From contig JALEPO010000050.1 of the NCBI GenBank assembly GCA_022768695.1, positions 1 through 54,470 on the forward strand: a stretch of 54,470 nucleotides of DNA, read 5' to 3'. Made by a program: the position numbers and the translations under genes. This document shows, piece after piece, positions 30,974 through 37,650 of this stretch. Position 1 is the first letter of the stretch, and each line of letters opens with the position of its first letter. A model generated the notes under the pieces. The model had not been told where the DNA came from, searched no databases, and worked only from the letters and a program-made list of their open reading frames with translations. The stretch comes from Clostridia bacterium (GTDB taxonomy: Bacteria > Bacillota > Clostridia > UBA1381).

Positions 30974-31596
30974 TATGCAAGCACCTCCTCAATCTTAGCT
31001 ACGGCATCCTTTGAAATGATGAATGCATCATGGTTAAGAATGTCATATGTGTTAAGTGTTCCAACGTGAGTCGGTGTAACACCCTTGATGTTTCTTGCTG
31101 ATTTGTAAACCTTTTCGTCAGCCTCAGCTGTTACGATAAGCGCCTTATTGTTGATTTCAAGACCCTTTAGCAAAGCTGCAATCTTAGCTGTCTTGAACTC
31201 ATCAACGTTCAAGCCGTCGATTACATATACTTTATAATCAGCATACTTAGCTGATAGAGCGCTCTTTAAAGCAATTCTCTTTACCTTCTTATTTATGCTG
31301 TAGCGATAGCTTCTTGGCTTAGGACCTAAAGCTACGCCGCCGCCTGTCCACTGCGGAGCTCTGATACTACCCTGTCTTGCACGGCCTGTACCCTTCTGTC
31401 TCCAAGGCTTTGCACCGCCGCCGCGTACTTCTGTACGTGTCTTTGTTGACTGTGTGCCTTGTCTTTGATTTGCAAGATAGTTTACTACTACTGTATGCAA
31501 AACTGTTTTATTCACTTCAGCAGCAAAGATAGCGTCTGAAACTTCCATTGAGCCGGTCTTTGCGCCTTCCATGTTATATAAAGCCACTGTAGCCAT
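30973..31596 (-). CDS. rplD: 50S ribosomal protein L4
   Basis: L4 lines the exit tunnel with L22. The 207 residues contain [20 protein letters not shown] and [20 protein letters not shown], the conserved tunnel loop. In E. coli L4 is also the repressor of the S10 operon, by attenuating transcription in the leader. The terminator in the leader of this operon (32808-32847) makes a similar role worth testing, although Firmicutes are not known to me to use L4 this way. Confidence 0.97.
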
Positions 31597-31624
31597 TATA
31601 TTTCCTCCTTTCCAATAACCTCGA

Positions 31625-32251
31625 TTATGCCTTTACGCTGTTTCTGATTGTAACAAGACCGCCCTTGTTTCCCGGAACTGCGCCCTTAACAAGGATTAAG
31701 TTCTGTTCAGCGTCTACCTTAACAACCTCTAAGTTTTGGATTGTAACCTTTTCGACACCCATGTGTCCGGGAAGTACCTTACCCTTCAATACTCTGCCTG
31801 GGTTTGAGCACATACCCATTGAACCGGATACTCTCTTACTCTTTGAACCGTGAGTCATAGGACCTCTGTGCAAACCGTGCTTCATCGGGCCGGCAAATCC
31901 CTTACCCTTTGAAATACCGCTTACATCAATCTTTTCTCCGGCTGCGAAAATGTCAGCCTTGATTTCATCGCCTACGTTCAAGCTTGAGCAATCGTCAAGT
32001 CTGAACTCTCTGACATACTTTTTATTAGCAGTGTTTGCCTTTGCGAAATGACCCTTCTGCGGCTTATTAAGATGCTTTTCTTTAACATCGCCAAAGCCTA
32101 CCTGGACAGCTTCATATCCGTCTGTTTCAACAGTCTTCTTCTGTGTAACAACACACGGACCTGCAACGATAACAGTTACAGGGATAACCTTGCCGCCTTC
32201 GCCAAAGATTTGAGTCATACCAATCTTTGTACCTAAAATTGCTTTTTCCAT
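31625..32251 (-). CDS. rplC: 50S ribosomal protein L3
   Basis: L3 is an assembly initiator whose tip reaches the peptidyl-transferase centre. The 208 residues start [20 protein letters not shown] and include [20 protein letters not shown] and [21 protein letters not shown] 145-bp spacer separates it from rpsJ and contains only a weak TTTGCG/CGCAAA hairpin. Confidence 0.97.
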
Positions 32252-32396
32252 GATTTTTCCTCCTTAACAGTTATTGGTTTGCGTTAAAAGCACCGCAAAC
32301 ATGACCTGCATCATAGTAAGCGTGTGAGCTTGCCCACCGCAAACTACTGCACTTTCGGTGTTTTAAACAAGTTCTGAAATTCTCCGTATCGCTGAA

Positions 32397-32711
32397 TTAC
32401 TTCTGGATTACATCAATTTCAACGCCTGCCGGTAGATCAATCTTAATCAATGCTTCCATTGTCTTAGCGCCCGGAACCACGATGTCGATTAATCTCTTGT
32501 GAGTTCTTCTTTCGAACTGCTCACGAGAATCCTTATACTTATGAACCGCTCTTAGGATTGTGATGATTTCCTTGTCTGTAGGAAGTGGAATAGGACCTGA
32601 TACCTTAGCTCCTGTTCTCTTTGCAATCTCAACAATCTTTTCAGCTGACTGGTCAAGTACCACATGATCATAAGCCTTTAACTTGATTCTGATTTTTTGA
32701 TTTGCTGCCAT
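32397..32711 (-). CDS. rpsJ: 30S ribosomal protein S10
   Basis: S10 is a head protein of the 30S subunit and, as NusE, a transcription antitermination factor. The 104 residues begin [20 protein letters not shown] and contain ISGPIPLPT-like [13 protein letters not shown] and HEQFERR-like [15 protein letters not shown]. The start at 32711 has AAGGAGGG 6 bases upstream; a longer frame to 32729 begins inside the leader. First gene of the cluster, behind a leader of about 320 bases with an intrinsic terminator. Confidence 0.96.
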
Positions 32712-33035
32712 ACTTTTCCCTCCTTGCAAAATAAATTGTACGTTGTAATCTGCACGACAGCTACTTTAGAAAATTGCACACACTGCCGGGTGTTTCGCAC
32801 CACCCATTTAAAAAAGCTCAAACCTTGCGATTTTCAAGTGTTTGAGCCGCATATAGTCAATTTCTGTCATACTATTCCTTTGCATCAAATTTACGCAAGA
32901 CACAGGTATAGCGTACATTTTCGGAATAGCGTGACAAGACTGCCGCCCGGTTTCTTGAATCGGACATTCTCCACGGAAAAACCGGCACCATTCGCCGCAA
33001 CCTCCCGCTTCATCGTTTGTTCAAGTGTCACAACG
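32712..33035 (-). promoter_or_regulatory. Structured 5' leader of the S10 operon (candidate attenuator)
   Basis: Between the promoter (33042-33070) and rpsJ lie about 320 transcribed bases without a convincing gene. In minus-strand RNA, GUGACA (33026-33031) can pair with UGUCAC (32931-32936), enclosing a second stem CCGGTTT (32979-32985) with AAACCGG (32947-32953). A strong terminator follows at 32808-32847, then a weaker stem GGGTG/CACCC at about 32785-32805. The arrangement is that of a cis-regulatory attenuator, but no known leader family is recognised. Confidence 0.5.
32808..32847 (-). terminator. Intrinsic terminator upstream of rpsJ (attenuator)
   Basis: On the minus strand GCTCAAAC (32840-32847) pairs with GTTTGAGC (32815-32822), extended by CTTG/CAAG inside with one bulged base to a 12-bp stem, and TTTTTT (32810-32815) follows. 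It ends about 97 bp upstream of the rpsJ start codon. I found no strong promoter between it and rpsJ, so full expression of the operon would require read-through or antitermination. Confidence 0.75.
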
Positions 33036-33041
33036 TCTATA

Positions 33042-33070
33042 ATTATACAGGATTCTTCCGTATTTTGCAA
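33042..33070 (-). promoter_or_regulatory. Promoter of the S10-spc-alpha cluster
   Basis: TTGCAA (33065-33070), 17 bases and TATAAT (33042-33047) on the minus strand. It lies upstream of the structured leader and downstream of the hydrogenase terminator, so it is the likely main promoter of the whole ribosomal cluster. Confidence 0.7.
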
Positions 33071-33095
33071 GCTTTTTTGCAAAAAAACTTCATTA

Positions 33096-33121
33096 AAATT
33101 TCTACAAATTTGTAGAAATTT
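33096..33121. promoter_or_regulatory. 26-bp perfect palindrome upstream of the S10 promoter
   Basis: AAATTTCTACAAA (33096-33108) is followed directly by its exact reverse complement TTTGTAGAAATTT (33109-33121), with no loop. The perfect dyad, about 25 bp upstream of the -35 box, looks like a binding site for a dimeric regulator or an UP-like element. Confidence 0.5.
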
Positions 33122-33148
33122 CAAATTCTTTTTTGTGCAGTTTGACAG

Positions 33149-33181
33149 ACATATTTTTTACACAAAATGTAAAAAATATGT
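33149..33181. repeat. 14-bp inverted repeat in the hydA-rpsJ spacer
   Basis: ACATATTTTTTACA (33149-33162), loop CAAAA, and TGTAAAAAATATGT (33168-33181) form a perfect hairpin. The rest of 33122-33344 is AT-rich and shows no convincing gene. Confidence 0.55.
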
Positions 33182-33344
33182 TATTTGTAATTAAATTGTA
33201 ATATAACTTAGCATTTATCTGATTAATTTTCCGATAAAAAAGATTTTCTGTTATCAACCTGACAACCCAATCTTGGAACAATAAGGAAATCTTTGCTTTG
33301 AATAAGCAAAATACCTCATCATATGAGTAATTTCCTATTCTTAT

Positions 33345-33376
33345 ACAAAAAACCGGGCGACAAATCCCGCCCGGCT
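33345..33376 (-). terminator. Terminator of the hydCBA operon
   Basis: On the minus strand CCGGGCG (33368-33374), loop GGATTTGT and CGCCCGG (33353-33359) is followed by TTTTTT (33347-33352), 6 bp after the hydA stop. Confidence 0.88.
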
Positions 33377-33381
33377 TATAA

Positions 33382-35070
33382 TTATTTCTGATATTCAACG
33401 TGTAACAATTCGTGATTTCTGCCCTTTATAATTTCATCGTAAATTATCTGAACAGTCGGATTTTTTTCTGAATACTTAATCTGTATTCTCTCATCGGTAT
33501 GATACAGGCCCTTAGCACGCTTATCTCGTTCAGGGTGCATAGCAAACGGCTGACCGGCTCCACCTATACATCCCTCAGGACACGCCATTACCTCAATAAG
33601 GTCATAATAAGCCTCTCCGTTTTCAATCGATGTTATTAATTGCTCCGCAACAGCAAGACCATGAACCACGCATATCTTAAATTCTCTGTCACCAACGTTT
33701 ATTACTGCTTCCTTTATTTCCTCTTTACCGCGTATTCCAACAAACTTAATATCCTTAATCGCTCCGGAGCTCTTATCCTCACTGCACTGACGTATAACAG
33801 CCTCCGCAACACCGCCCGTTACACCGAATATAACACCTGCGCCACTGCCGCCCATATCAAACGGATAGTCAAGATACTCATTTTCAAGGTCGGCAAACTG
33901 AATACCCGCTTCTCTAATCATAGTTGCCAACTCCTGTGTAGTAAGCGATAATTCAATTATGCGCTTACCGTCCACAGTAAACTCAGGGCGCGCCGCCTCA
34001 TATTTTTTAGCTGTACACGGCATGATAGCAACGGAAATAAGCTCTCTGTCATCACCGTCATCAGTATGCATCTCTTTTAATATGCTGCCAAACATCTGCA
34101 TCGGGGATTTGCAGCTTGAAATATTATTGTTAATAAATTCGGGATGCTTTTTCTCAGCATATCTTATCCACGCAGGGCAGCACGACGTAAACATAGGGAA
34201 AGGTCCGCCGCTCTTAACTCTGTCAAGAAATTCAGCCGCTTCCTCCATAACAGTCATATCCGCTCCGAGAACAGTGTCGTATACCTTATCTACACCCATC
34301 ATTTTCAAAGCGGCAACAGTTTTTCCGAGAACATTTTCACCATGCTCCATACCAAATTCATCGCCAAGGGCAACTCTTACCGCCGGCGCAATCTGAACTA
34401 CAACCTTCTTTGAAGGATCATTAAGATATTTCCACATAAGCTCAGACTCGTCCTTAACAGTTATCGCACCCGTAGGACAAACAGCCGCACACTGACCGCA
34501 GTTTACACAATCTGTGTCGCAAAGCTTCATATCAAACGCCGGCATAACCTGCATCTTTGAGCCTCTGTGTGCAAAATCAATAATTCCCAGTCCCTGCTTT
34601 TCGCGGCATACACGAACACAGTCACCGCACAGAATACATTTATTAGGGTCACGAACAATACTCTTACTGCTTGTGTCGCGCTCCATGACAGGACGCGTAT
34701 CCTCAAAACGAATTTTCTTCACACCAAATCGTATTGCAAGCTCCTGCAAACGGCATGAACCGCTTTTTGAACAGGTAGTGCAATCACGGCAATGCGAGGA
34801 AAGCAGCAATTCAAGAATCATCTTTCTGTGCTTCTGAAGCGCAATTGTATTTGTCTTTATCTTCATTCCATCTCTGGGCTGCGTTGAGCAGGCTGCTTCA
34901 ACTCCTCCCCATTCATTCTCCACAACGCACATTCTGCACGCGCCGTATGTGGAAAGCTCTGAATAATAGCAGAAGGTAGGCATTTCTATTCCGGCTTTTC
35001 TGATAACCTCAAGGACATTTTTTTCGCCCTCAATTTTAACCTTCATACCGTCAACATACATATATCCCAT
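33382..35070 (-). CDS. hydA: [FeFe]-hydrogenase catalytic subunit (HydA of a HydABC complex)
   Basis: This subunit makes H2 at the H-cluster. The 562 residues hold an N-terminal [2Fe-2S] domain (TFCYYSELSTYGACRMC), a His-Cys cluster (HCRDCTTCSKSGSC), two [4Fe-4S] motifs (CILCGDCVRVC, CVNCGQCAAVCPTGA) and the three H-cluster loops: FTSCCPAWIRY, MPCTAKKYEA and EVMACPEGCIGGAGQP. A small C-terminal Fe_hyd_SSU part follows. The last loop has GGAGQ where GGGQ is most usual. The start at 35070 has GGAGG 10 bases upstream. With HydB and HydC it should oxidise NADH plus reduced ferredoxin together (electron confurcation), which is inferred from the gene set. Confidence 0.93.
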   Translation of the reverse strand: MGYMYVDGMKVKIEGEKNVLEVIRKAGIEMPTFCYYSELSTYGACRMCVVENEWGGVEAACSTQPRDGMKIKTNTIALQKHRKMILELLLSSHCRDCTTCSKSGSCRLQELAIRFGVKKIRFEDTRPVMERDTSSKSIVRDPNKCILCGDCVRVCREKQGLGIIDFAHRGSKMQVMPAFDMKLCDTDCVNCGQCAAVCPTGAITVKDESELMWKYLNDPSKKVVVQIAPAVRVALGDEFGMEHGENVLGKTVAALKMMGVDKVYDTVLGADMTVMEEAAEFLDRVKSGGPFPMFTSCCPAWIRYAEKKHPEFINNNISSCKSPMQMFGSILKEMHTDDGDDRELISVAIMPCTAKKYEAARPEFTVDGKRIIELSLTTQELATMIREAGIQFADLENEYLDYPFDMGGSGAGVIFGVTGGVAEAVIRQCSEDKSSGAIKDIKFVGIRGKEEIKEAVINVGDREFKICVVHGLAVAEQLITSIENGEAYYDLIEVMACPEGCIGGAGQPFAMHPERDKRAKGLYHTDERIQIKYSEKNPTVQIIYDEIIKGRNHELLHVEYQK

Positions 35071-35075
35071 CTGAA

Positions 35076-36956
35076 TTATACCTCCTCTACCGCACCGAAC
35101 GGACAAGCTTCTATACAAGCTCCGCACTTAATACATTTTTCCGAATTAATTTCAAAAGGACTCTTAATTTCTCCGCTGATTGCCTGTACCGGACACTGTC
35201 TTGCGCACTTTGAACAACCCTTGCACTTATCAGGATTGATTTTATACTGCTTTAATGCCTGACACGCACCGGCAGGACACTTTTTATCTACAACGTGCGC
35301 TATATATTCATCTCTGAAATACTTAAGCGTTGACAGTACGGGATTTGCAGCCGTTTTTCCAAGACCGCAGAGCGCCGTCTTAGAAACCGTATGCGCAAGC
35401 TCCTCAAGCAAATCAAGATCCTCAAGAGTACCGTTGCCCTTCACTATTCTTTCAAGAATTTCGAGCATACGCTTAGTACCCTCACGGCACGGAACACACT
35501 TTCCGCACGACTCATTCTGAGTGAAGTTCATGAAAAATCTCGCAACCTCAACCATACAGGTATTTTCATCCATAACAACAAGACCGCCGGAGCCAATCAT
35601 CGCTCCAACCTTCTTCAGAGAATCGAAGTCAAGCGCAAGATCCAGCTGACCTGCACTCAAAGTCAGACATCCGCCTGACGGTCCGCCAATCTGAACAGCC
35701 TTAAACTCCTTATCTCCCTTTATACCGCCGCCGATATCAAAAACAACCTCACGAAGAGTCGTTCCCATAGGCACCTCAATCAAGCCTGTATTTTTAACAT
35801 TTCCGGTTATGGCAAAAGCTTTCGTTCCCGGACTTGTTTCCGTGCCGACCGAACGATACCATTCAACGCCTTTTGTTATAATAAGCGGAACATTAGCGTA
35901 TGTTTCTACATTGTTAAGAACTGTAGGCTTTGCGAACAGTCCGGCTTCAACAGTACGCGGAGGCTTAACTCTCGGCATACCTCTCTCGCCCTCAATAGAC
36001 GCCGTAAGAGCGCTGCCTTCACCGCACACAAACGCTCCCGCACCCTGATTTATATGAATATTAAACGAAAAATCAGTTCCCAGTACATTACCGCCAAGCA
36101 GTCCAAGCTTCTCCGCCTGCTCGATAGCGCGCTTTAAGCGTTCAACCGCAAGCGGATATTCCGCGCGGACATAAATATATCCCTCGCTTGCAGCTGTAGC
36201 AACACCGGCAATAAGCATACCCTCAAGCATTCTGTGAGGATTACCCTCCATAATGCTTCTGTCCATGAACGCGCCCGGGTCACCCTCATCACCGTTACAT
36301 ACAATATATCTTACCTTTTCCGGCTGTTTTCTTACCTGATGCCACTTTCTGCCGGCAGGATAACCGCCGCCACCGCGCCCTCTCAAGCCGCTTTCTTCTA
36401 TTTCGTTGCAAATCTGCTCGTCGCTCATTTCAAACAACGCCCGCTCCAATCCGGCATAACCGCCCAAAGCGATATACTCATCAATGGAATCAGCGTCAAT
36501 CTGACCGCATTCGTCAAGAACTATTCTTGTCTGTTTCTTATAAAAAGGAATATCAAACTGCTTTTCATATGTACCTGTCGAGTCCTTATAGAACAGTCTT
36601 TCAACCGGTTCTTTATTTACAAGAGTTTTTTCAGCAATTTCTTCACAATCTTCAAGCTTAACCTGCAAATAAAGCCATCCCATAGGCTCAATTTTAAGCA
36701 GCGGACCAAGCTCGCAAAAGCCGTTGCAGCCGCTCTTTTTAATACCTATACTGCCATGATCGATTTCCTTCTGAAGCTCAACCTGTACCTTAAGACCTTT
36801 CTCCTTGCATAGCTCAATTAAGCGATTATATATTTTTATACTTCCGCCTGCCACACAGCCTGTTCCCGCGCAGACAAGCACACGCAGCTCCTGAGAATCA
36901 AGCGCTCGGGCACATTGCGCGCGATATTCCTGTAATTCCTTCTGCGATGTCAGCAT
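35076..36956 (-). CDS. hydB: NAD-dependent hydrogenase diaphorase subunit HydB (NuoF-like)
   Basis: This subunit carries NADH and FMN sites. The 626 residues comprise a thioredoxin-like [2Fe-2S] domain at the N-terminus (VCAGTGCVAGGS, GCNGFCELGPLL), the NuoF core (RGRGGGGYPAGRKWHQV, CNGDEGDPGAFMDRS), an SLBB domain, the 4Fe-4S site ESCGKCVPCREGTKR, and two ferredoxin clusters at the C-terminus (CKGCSKCARQCPV, CIKCGACIEACPFGA). Length and domain order match HydB of bifurcating hydrogenases. It overlaps hydC by 7 bp and ends 6 bp before hydA, so the three are one unit. Confidence 0.93.
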   Translation of the reverse strand: MLTSQKELQEYRAQCARALDSQELRVLVCAGTGCVAGGSIKIYNRLIELCKEKGLKVQVELQKEIDHGSIGIKKSGCNGFCELGPLLKIEPMGWLYLQVKLEDCEEIAEKTLVNKEPVERLFYKDSTGTYEKQFDIPFYKKQTRIVLDECGQIDADSIDEYIALGGYAGLERALFEMSDEQICNEIEESGLRGRGGGGYPAGRKWHQVRKQPEKVRYIVCNGDEGDPGAFMDRSIMEGNPHRMLEGMLIAGVATAASEGYIYVRAEYPLAVERLKRAIEQAEKLGLLGGNVLGTDFSFNIHINQGAGAFVCGEGSALTASIEGERGMPRVKPPRTVEAGLFAKPTVLNNVETYANVPLIITKGVEWYRSVGTETSPGTKAFAITGNVKNTGLIEVPMGTTLREVVFDIGGGIKGDKEFKAVQIGGPSGGCLTLSAGQLDLALDFDSLKKVGAMIGSGGLVVMDENTCMVEVARFFMNFTQNESCGKCVPCREGTKRMLEILERIVKGNGTLEDLDLLEELAHTVSKTALCGLGKTAANPVLSTLKYFRDEYIAHVVDKKCPAGACQALKQYKINPDKCKGCSKCARQCPVQAISGEIKSPFEINSEKCIKCGACIEACPFGAVEEV

Positions 36957-37429
36957 ATCCCCTCCTCCTTTCTTATGCTATCCAAAAGCTCAACCGCCTT
37001 CTGCGGAGTCATAGCCGGATAAACAACGTCATTAACCGTCATAACAGGAGCAAGACCGCACGCTCCCAGACATGAAACAGTTTCGACAGTAAACATCATA
37101 TCATCAGTTGTCGGCTTCTGTTCGCTTACACCAAGATTTTCTCTTACCTTTTCAAGAATAGGGATTGATTTTCTAACATGACACGCTGTGCCATCACAGA
37201 TTTTAATAACATACTTTCCTTTAGGATCAAGCGAAAAGTTTTCATAAAATGTTGCAACAGAATAAATCTTGGCAATACTAATTTTCATTTTTTCTGCCAC
37301 ATGCTCCAAGATTTCTCTCGGCAAATATCTGTATTCCGCCTGAATCTGCTGAAGCACGGTGATAAGATTTTTCTGTTCATTGCCATACTGCTCAAGAACA
37401 GCATCAACATGACTAAAATTCGATTCCAT
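36950..37429 (-). CDS. hydC: Hydrogenase subunit HydC (NuoE-like, [2Fe-2S])
   Basis: The 159 residues show the NuoE thioredoxin-like fold with four cysteine ligands in KICDGTACHVRKS and VSCLGACGLAPVM. The family passes electrons between HydB and HydA. The N-terminal helix bundle contains LQQIQAEYRYLPREILEHVA. GAGGAAGATAAGGA precedes ATG, and it is the first gene of the hydCBA operon behind the promoter at 37476-37505. Confidence 0.93.
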   Translation of the reverse strand: MESNFSHVDAVLEQYGNEQKNLITVLQQIQAEYRYLPREILEHVAEKMKISIAKIYSVATFYENFSLDPKGKYVIKICDGTACHVRKSIPILEKVRENLGVSEQKPTTDDMMFTVETVSCLGACGLAPVMTVNDVVYPAMTPQKAVELLDSIRKEEGIC

Positions 37430-37619: not shown

Positions 37620-37650
37620 AAAGGACTGAGCACTTTTAAGTGCATCAGCC
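37620..37650 (-). terminator. Terminator after mgsA
   Basis: The minus strand shows GGGCTGATGCACTT and AAGTGCTCAGTCC, a stem with small bulges, followed by TTTTATTTTT. It ends the mreB-to-mgsA transcript, 16 bp after the mgsA stop. Confidence 0.75.

Follow-up and report, generated by a model that had tools for sequence, protein, structure and literature searches.

The S10-spc-alpha cluster encodes a large share of the ribosome, and to our knowledge its control outside the Proteobacteria is little understood. The locus studied here belongs to a gut bacterium of the Clostridia and lies in contig JALEPO010000050.1, all 54,470 nt of which were analyzed and are called the window below. It raises the question of how the ribosomal cluster is expressed if its only good promoter is followed by an intrinsic terminator ahead of the first gene. 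The promoter, leader, terminator hairpin, and rpsJ are all on the (-) strand of the window and are laid out as follows.

33042-33070, (-) strand: promoter, with TTGCAA (33070-33065), a 17-nt spacer, and TATAAT (33047-33042), 10/12 consensus matches.
32940-33021, (-) strand: core of the S10-Clostridia ribosomal protein leader, Rfam RF03136, 82 nt, 50.3 bits with a gathering cut-off of 35.1.
32864-32937, (-) strand: stem-loop between core and terminator that varies by species, seen in the MFE and centroid folds.
32816-32847, (-) strand: terminator hairpin of 13 pairs with one bulge, based on fold energy, d score, and kept position.
32810-32815, (-) strand: U6 tail and predicted 3' end of the attenuated transcript, based on sequence and d score.
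32718-32725, (-) strand: Shine-Dalgarno sequence AAGGAGGG, read from the sequence.
32397-32711, (-) strand: rpsJ (ribosomal protein S10), first gene of the cluster, with its ATG at 32711, from the ORF translation.

The promoter is the top-scoring one on the (-) strand within 31500-34500, and 37 of the 47 relatives from the order have a promoter-like pair with at least 9/12 matches in the corresponding position. Transcription would start near 33036-33034, and the leader between promoter and rpsJ spans about 325 nt. By the same criterion of at least 9/12, no promoter-like site was found between the U-tail and rpsJ in the window; such a pair was present in that interval in 10 of the 47 relatives. 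The original prediction had named this promoter as the sole good one, with no strong promoter after it and two enclosed stems behind it. All three points were borne out, the stems as the predicted fold at 32937-32864, whose sequence is unconserved among relatives. We take the genes that follow, named through sequence recognition, to be rpsJ-rplC-rplD-rplW-rplB-rpsS-rplV-rpsC-rplP. Directly upstream of the ribosomal cluster, at 33382-37429 on the (-) strand, is what looks like an operon for NuoE/NuoF-like subunits and an [FeFe]-hydrogenase-like protein. The ORF of the latter ends at 33382 and has its own terminator at 33377-33350, the strongest in the window. Since this terminator closes the upstream operon, read-through from there is unlikely to feed the cluster, which must therefore rely on the leader promoter or on promoters inside the cluster.

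The original prediction recognized no described family in the leader, which proved wrong. A scan of the entire window with cmscan and Rfam 15 gave one match, RF03136, which covers the full model (1-81 of 81), scores 15 bits above the cut-off, and lies in the 5' leader of the rpsJ/S10 operon with rpsJ downstream on the same strand. No other Rfam match was found at E <= 1. Membership in RF03136 is settled and, therefore, the kind of leader is already known. Of 61 near relatives, 51 also had a match. The class gave 114 matching genomes among 196, with 92 scoring above the cut-off, and the phylum 84 among 199, with 51 above it; the controls, B. subtilis and L. lactis, matched as well. One genome (G016) carried two matches, at C63:3377-3459 and C15:217-297, either a second copy or an assembly mix. 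Eckert & Weinberg 2020 (PMC7247131) reported Clostridia examples that they consider the same in structure as the S10 leader described by Yao et al. 2007 in Firmicutes, and discussed them no further. Judging by the family name, RF03136 presumably rests on those examples. The window shares with the family the same RNA core over the full model, the same gene, and the same place, but the Rfam model stops at 32940 and leaves outside it a closing helix, the attenuator hairpin, and a CACCCGG element.

The hairpin at 32847-32816 with its U6 tail folded at -16.1 kcal/mol (with flanking bases), compared to -6.3 +/- 2.0 for shuffles (z = -4.84). Candidates were also ranked by the d'Aubenton-Carafa d score, a standard measure of hairpin and U-tail. 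Both strands of the window together had 345 terminator candidates, among which the hairpin, at d = 3.9, ranked 9th, well ahead of the following one at -1.7. Four dinucleotide-shuffled windows contained 0, 1, 0, and 1 candidates per strand at d >= 3.9. The stretch 32847-32810 is a stable G+C-rich hairpin with a U-tract beyond chance, as expected of an intrinsic terminator. It was not in the output of the automatic terminator scan. The terminator had been predicted as 12 bp with a U6 tail about 97 bp before rpsJ; by sequence, the terminator and U6 are real, with 13 pairs and 98 nt from the end of the U6 to the ATG. A second strong terminator of the window, at 37623 on the (-) strand, has the tail UUUUAUUUUU, and the UUUUAUUU tails seen in relatives are therefore normal for the lineage.

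In all, 126 distinct S10 leaders were compared. The hairpin was present at the same place in all 46 leaders of the window's order, nearly always 22-25 nt before the conserved CACCCGG, in line with a terminator of conserved position. The order's leaders had a median d of +3.0, with 30 at d >= 0 and 37 at d >= -6. Among other leaders of the class, a hairpin could be placed in the same range in 45 of 50, with a median d of -14.1; only 2 of the 45 reached d >= 0 and 15 reached d >= -6. A common cause of the poor scores is a tail that changes to A (UUUUAAUAUA, UUUAAAAUA). Some members (e.g., L047, L054, L145, and L152) have no G+C-rich arm at the hairpin place, and one family (f27) has no CCC..GGG-type arm there. 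Leaders of the class are long, at 158-453 nt, with a second conserved block after the core. Those of distant Bacillota are short, with 72-91 nt between the GGUUGC anchor and the ATG, and in them the core runs straight into the ribosome-binding site (..GGGCGAAAAGGAGG..). As a hairpin with a poor U-tail usually occupies the same place in other Clostridia, the terminator looks like a lineage-specific upgrade; read most simply, the window's order has turned a structural arm of the leader into a terminator. A pattern scan with GGGUUUUAUU and GAAACACCCGGC returned 16 records from Clostridia, Oscillospiraceae, and Bacillota MAGs, several of them from animal gut. In one genome of 4.8 Mb in a single contig (G082), pieces of 23S rRNA lie directly upstream of the S10 leader (L177) at C1:852522-854517; they span model positions of about 1032-2912 and are separate from the full-length rRNA operons.

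The leader continues past the terminator, and the following features lie in this part of the RNA or pair with it.

32939-32946, (-) strand: 5' strand of the closing helix, GCGGCAGU, overlapping the end of RF03136, based on covariation over 74-91 leaders.
32754-32761, (-) strand: 3' partner in the closing helix, GCUGUCGU, which exists in read-through RNA only, based on covariation over 74-91 leaders.
32858-32865, (-) strand: strand A, AGAAAUUG, which would pair with strand B after read-through.
32768-32776, (-) strand: strand B, CAAUUUUCU, partner of strand A.
32788-32805, (-) strand: post-terminator hairpin, GGGUG (32805-32801) with CACCC (32792-32788), based on covariation.
32776-32796, (-) strand: conserved 3' element GAAACACCCGGCAGUGUGUGC, with the class consensus GAAACACCCGGCANAGUGUACAG, based on leader comparison and model R1.

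The 3' element was searched for with R1, a sequence-only model of 40 positions built from 65 leaders. The training pattern demanded C.CGG or similar, so those positions are conserved by construction, and the real test of the model is in genomes independent of the training set. In the window, R1 gave a single match at 32815-32778 (31.6 bits, E 9e-9). When 59 whole genomes from the class were searched, 42 had a match at E <= 0.05. The best match was just downstream of RF03136 in 29 of these, and no RF03136 match was reported in the other 13. Five of the 13 were inspected (G065, G087, G099, G124, and G127), all outside the training set. The element was upstream of rpsJ in all five, and the core was diverged yet recognizable in most. 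R1, then, locates the S10 leader even where RF03136 is not reported, and on this comparison the 3' element is part of the leader.

The closing helix joins the last strand of RF03136, GCGACAG, to CUGUCGU beyond the terminator. Its strands change together across species, as GCGACAG:CUGUCGU, CGACAAG:CUUGUCG, CGACUUU:UAAGUCG, CGACUGG:CCGGUUG, and CGACUGU:UCAGUUG. The mean score over 91 leaders was 13.16, compared to 11.45 +/- 0.25 when core strands were permuted among species, a permutation that ignores relatedness. The A/B helix pairs a stretch upstream of the terminator with one that follows GUGU. Near relatives have it as GAAAAUUG:CAAUUUUC and another family as AAAAGCGUG:UACGCUUUU, with AAAAAGCAUG:UAUGCUUUUU and CUGUAC:GUACAG elsewhere. 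This pairing exceeded cross-species pairing at z = 8.2, again by a permutation that ignores relatedness; in the window itself it is weaker, with one bulge, and is not the top-scoring helix. The post-terminator hairpin also covaries (GGGUG:CACCC, GGGCG:CGCCC, and GCCGUG:CACGGC; z = 4.6, relatedness ignored) and is limited to part of the lineages. All three helices can form only in read-through RNA. A local hairpin, ACAC:GUGU around CCGGC, was rejected since its covariation was not above sequence conservation (z -1.1). The closing helix and the Rfam pairing UGUC:GACA at the end of the core are in competition; shifting the latter to GUCC:GGGC would make room for both. In four leaders without the terminator hairpin (L031, L034, L036, and L043, from f27 and one other family), the strand on the 3' side of the closing helix, CUUGUCGUACU, can alternatively pair with AGUGCGA, immediately upstream of the Shine-Dalgarno sequence. 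Such pairing would give a switch at the ribosome-binding site in these leaders.

We favor feedback attenuation by a ribosomal protein, resembling that of the E. coli S10 leader and L4 and operating without an antiterminator helix, with a probability of about one half. The RF03136 match, a terminator beyond chance, a hairpin in 46 of 46 leaders, and the kept upstream promoter all support attenuation. Given the positionally conserved terminator and no obvious later promoter, it was retained from the original prediction as the most economical reading. Under attenuation, RNA polymerase would start near 33036 and transcribe the core, and a fraction of the complexes would stop at 32810. A ribosomal protein of the cluster, when in excess, would bind the folded leader and increase termination, as L4 and NusA do on the E. 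coli S10 leader, with no competing antiterminator helix. In read-through RNA, the helix 32946-32939/32761-32754 would bring the terminator hairpin and CACCCGG together in a single domain upstream of the ribosome-binding site, and translation may be tuned there as well. The sequence comparisons show the family membership, the quality and kept position of the terminator, the 3' element, and the covariation of the closing helix; we infer that termination does occur, that it is partial, and that it is regulated by such a protein.

There is precedent for attenuation without an antiterminator helix in E. coli, where NusA pauses the polymerase at the attenuator hairpin of the S10 leader and L4 stabilizes the paused complex (PMC10931766). 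Conditional terminators are a known mechanism of ribosomal protein leaders (PMC7247131). The E. coli leader mediates both attenuation and translational repression by L4. The two S10 leaders have in common the operon, a structured leader, an intrinsic terminator before rpsJ, no need for an antiterminator helix, and, if the proposal holds, the mode of action. The RNA appears to differ, with RF03136 as the only Rfam match here at E <= 1, and the leader of the window is longer and has an additional domain downstream of the terminator. For hints of the ligand, the core and the 3' domain were aligned locally with the 16S and 23S rRNA of one Clostridia genome (the window's own assembly is without 16S), and no rRNA mimicry clearly above chance was found. 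The core scored 12.39 with 16S (shuffles 12.36) and 12.79 with 23S (shuffles 13.21), and the 3' domain exceeded shuffles by 0.6-0.7, roughly half of one standard deviation. In 44 of the 126 cores, which are homologous to one another, the best 16S match was at about 1275-1325 (AUGAAGUCGGAGUUGC..CCGCGGUGAAU) in the ribosomal head region, with scores not above shuffles. In the 16S fold, the pairing of this region presumably differs from that of the core. Neither L4 nor S10 can be preferred as the ligand from sequence.

Another possible explanation, unlikely in our view, is that the leader acts on translation only, with the hairpin as a structural arm and its U-rich 3' flank serving structure instead of termination. 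Most other Clostridia have a hairpin at this place before CACCCGG with poor tails such as UUUUAAUAUA, the fixed spacing suggests a packed RNA module, and distant Bacillota have the core alone, ending directly at the Shine-Dalgarno sequence. The poor U-tails and the short form also suggest that the older role of the leader may be translational. In the window's order, however, the tails are U-rich and the scores equal those of operon-end terminators in the same genome, and a structural arm needs neither. It is less probable still that the terminator is partial and unregulated, letting through a constant fraction of transcripts with no response to a protein. This would fit the moderate terminator scores in many relatives and the fact that no switching structure was found, but the hairpin is within a conserved ribosomal protein leader of a family assigned to feedback control, and long-range helices span it.

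A terminator/antiterminator switch controlled by a ligand is the usual design of attenuating Firmicutes leaders for ribosomal proteins (PMC10931766). The rplJL leader of B. subtilis (L10(L12)4), like the leader studied here an attenuating ribosomal protein leader in Bacillota, uses an antiterminator and an anti-antiterminator; neither was found in the S10 leader of the window. The 5' arm of the terminator paired no better with its own upstream RNA (14.4) than with that of other species (14.7 +/- 0.2). In a transcript ending at the U-tract, the mean pairing probability of the hairpin at equilibrium was 0.98 in the window and 0.86 over 43 relatives. Among the leaders compared, no conserved partner competing for the 5' arm was found. 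Such a switch is therefore improbable, and antitermination by a competing pairing was not upheld. With no alternative structure to switch the terminator, regulation would need a protein acting on the polymerase or on the hairpin. S10 is the first gene product of the cluster and is itself NusE, and the suggestion that with NusB and Nus factors on a boxA it makes the polymerase resistant to the terminator is very improbable. Inspection by eye of the stretch from promoter to terminator showed no CUCUUU run resembling boxA, and Rho-dependent stops are the main ones known to be overcome by boxA antitermination (PMC10931766).

Three parts of the leader appear to be new compared to the Rfam model and the literature consulted: the attenuator hairpin conserved in the order, the closing helix, and the 3' element. 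In the literature consulted on ribosomal protein leaders, neither a terminator nor this 3' element was found described for the S10-Clostridia leader. The RLC-47-1 rpsJ motif of Clostridioides difficile and its kin, which may cover part of the same RNA, is likewise a structured element in the rpsJ 5'-UTR of Clostridia; it was reported in 2024 from three genera of Peptostreptococcaceae only (PMC11109978).

One family of ribosomal protein leaders is seen here in three architectures: a core at the ribosome-binding site, a long form, and a long form with a terminator. If the reading of the conserved part is right, the Rfam model could be extended by it and would find S10 leaders that the present model does not report. 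The U-tract at 32815-32810 and the 3' domain would then be defined sites for tests. For the bacterium, this probably means that the cell tunes how much ribosomal protein it makes by allowing just a fraction of the transcripts to pass. We tentatively suggest, as a possibility that we hold to be somewhat unlikely, that the Clostridia S10 leader works in two stages, with the Rfam core, an arm made into an attenuator in one order, and a class-wide 3' domain (GAAACACCCGGCANAGUGUACAG and the closing helix) that would form only in read-through RNA and control translation or stability. If this is true, one RNA family would act at the ribosome-binding site or at termination, depending on the lineage of Bacillota.
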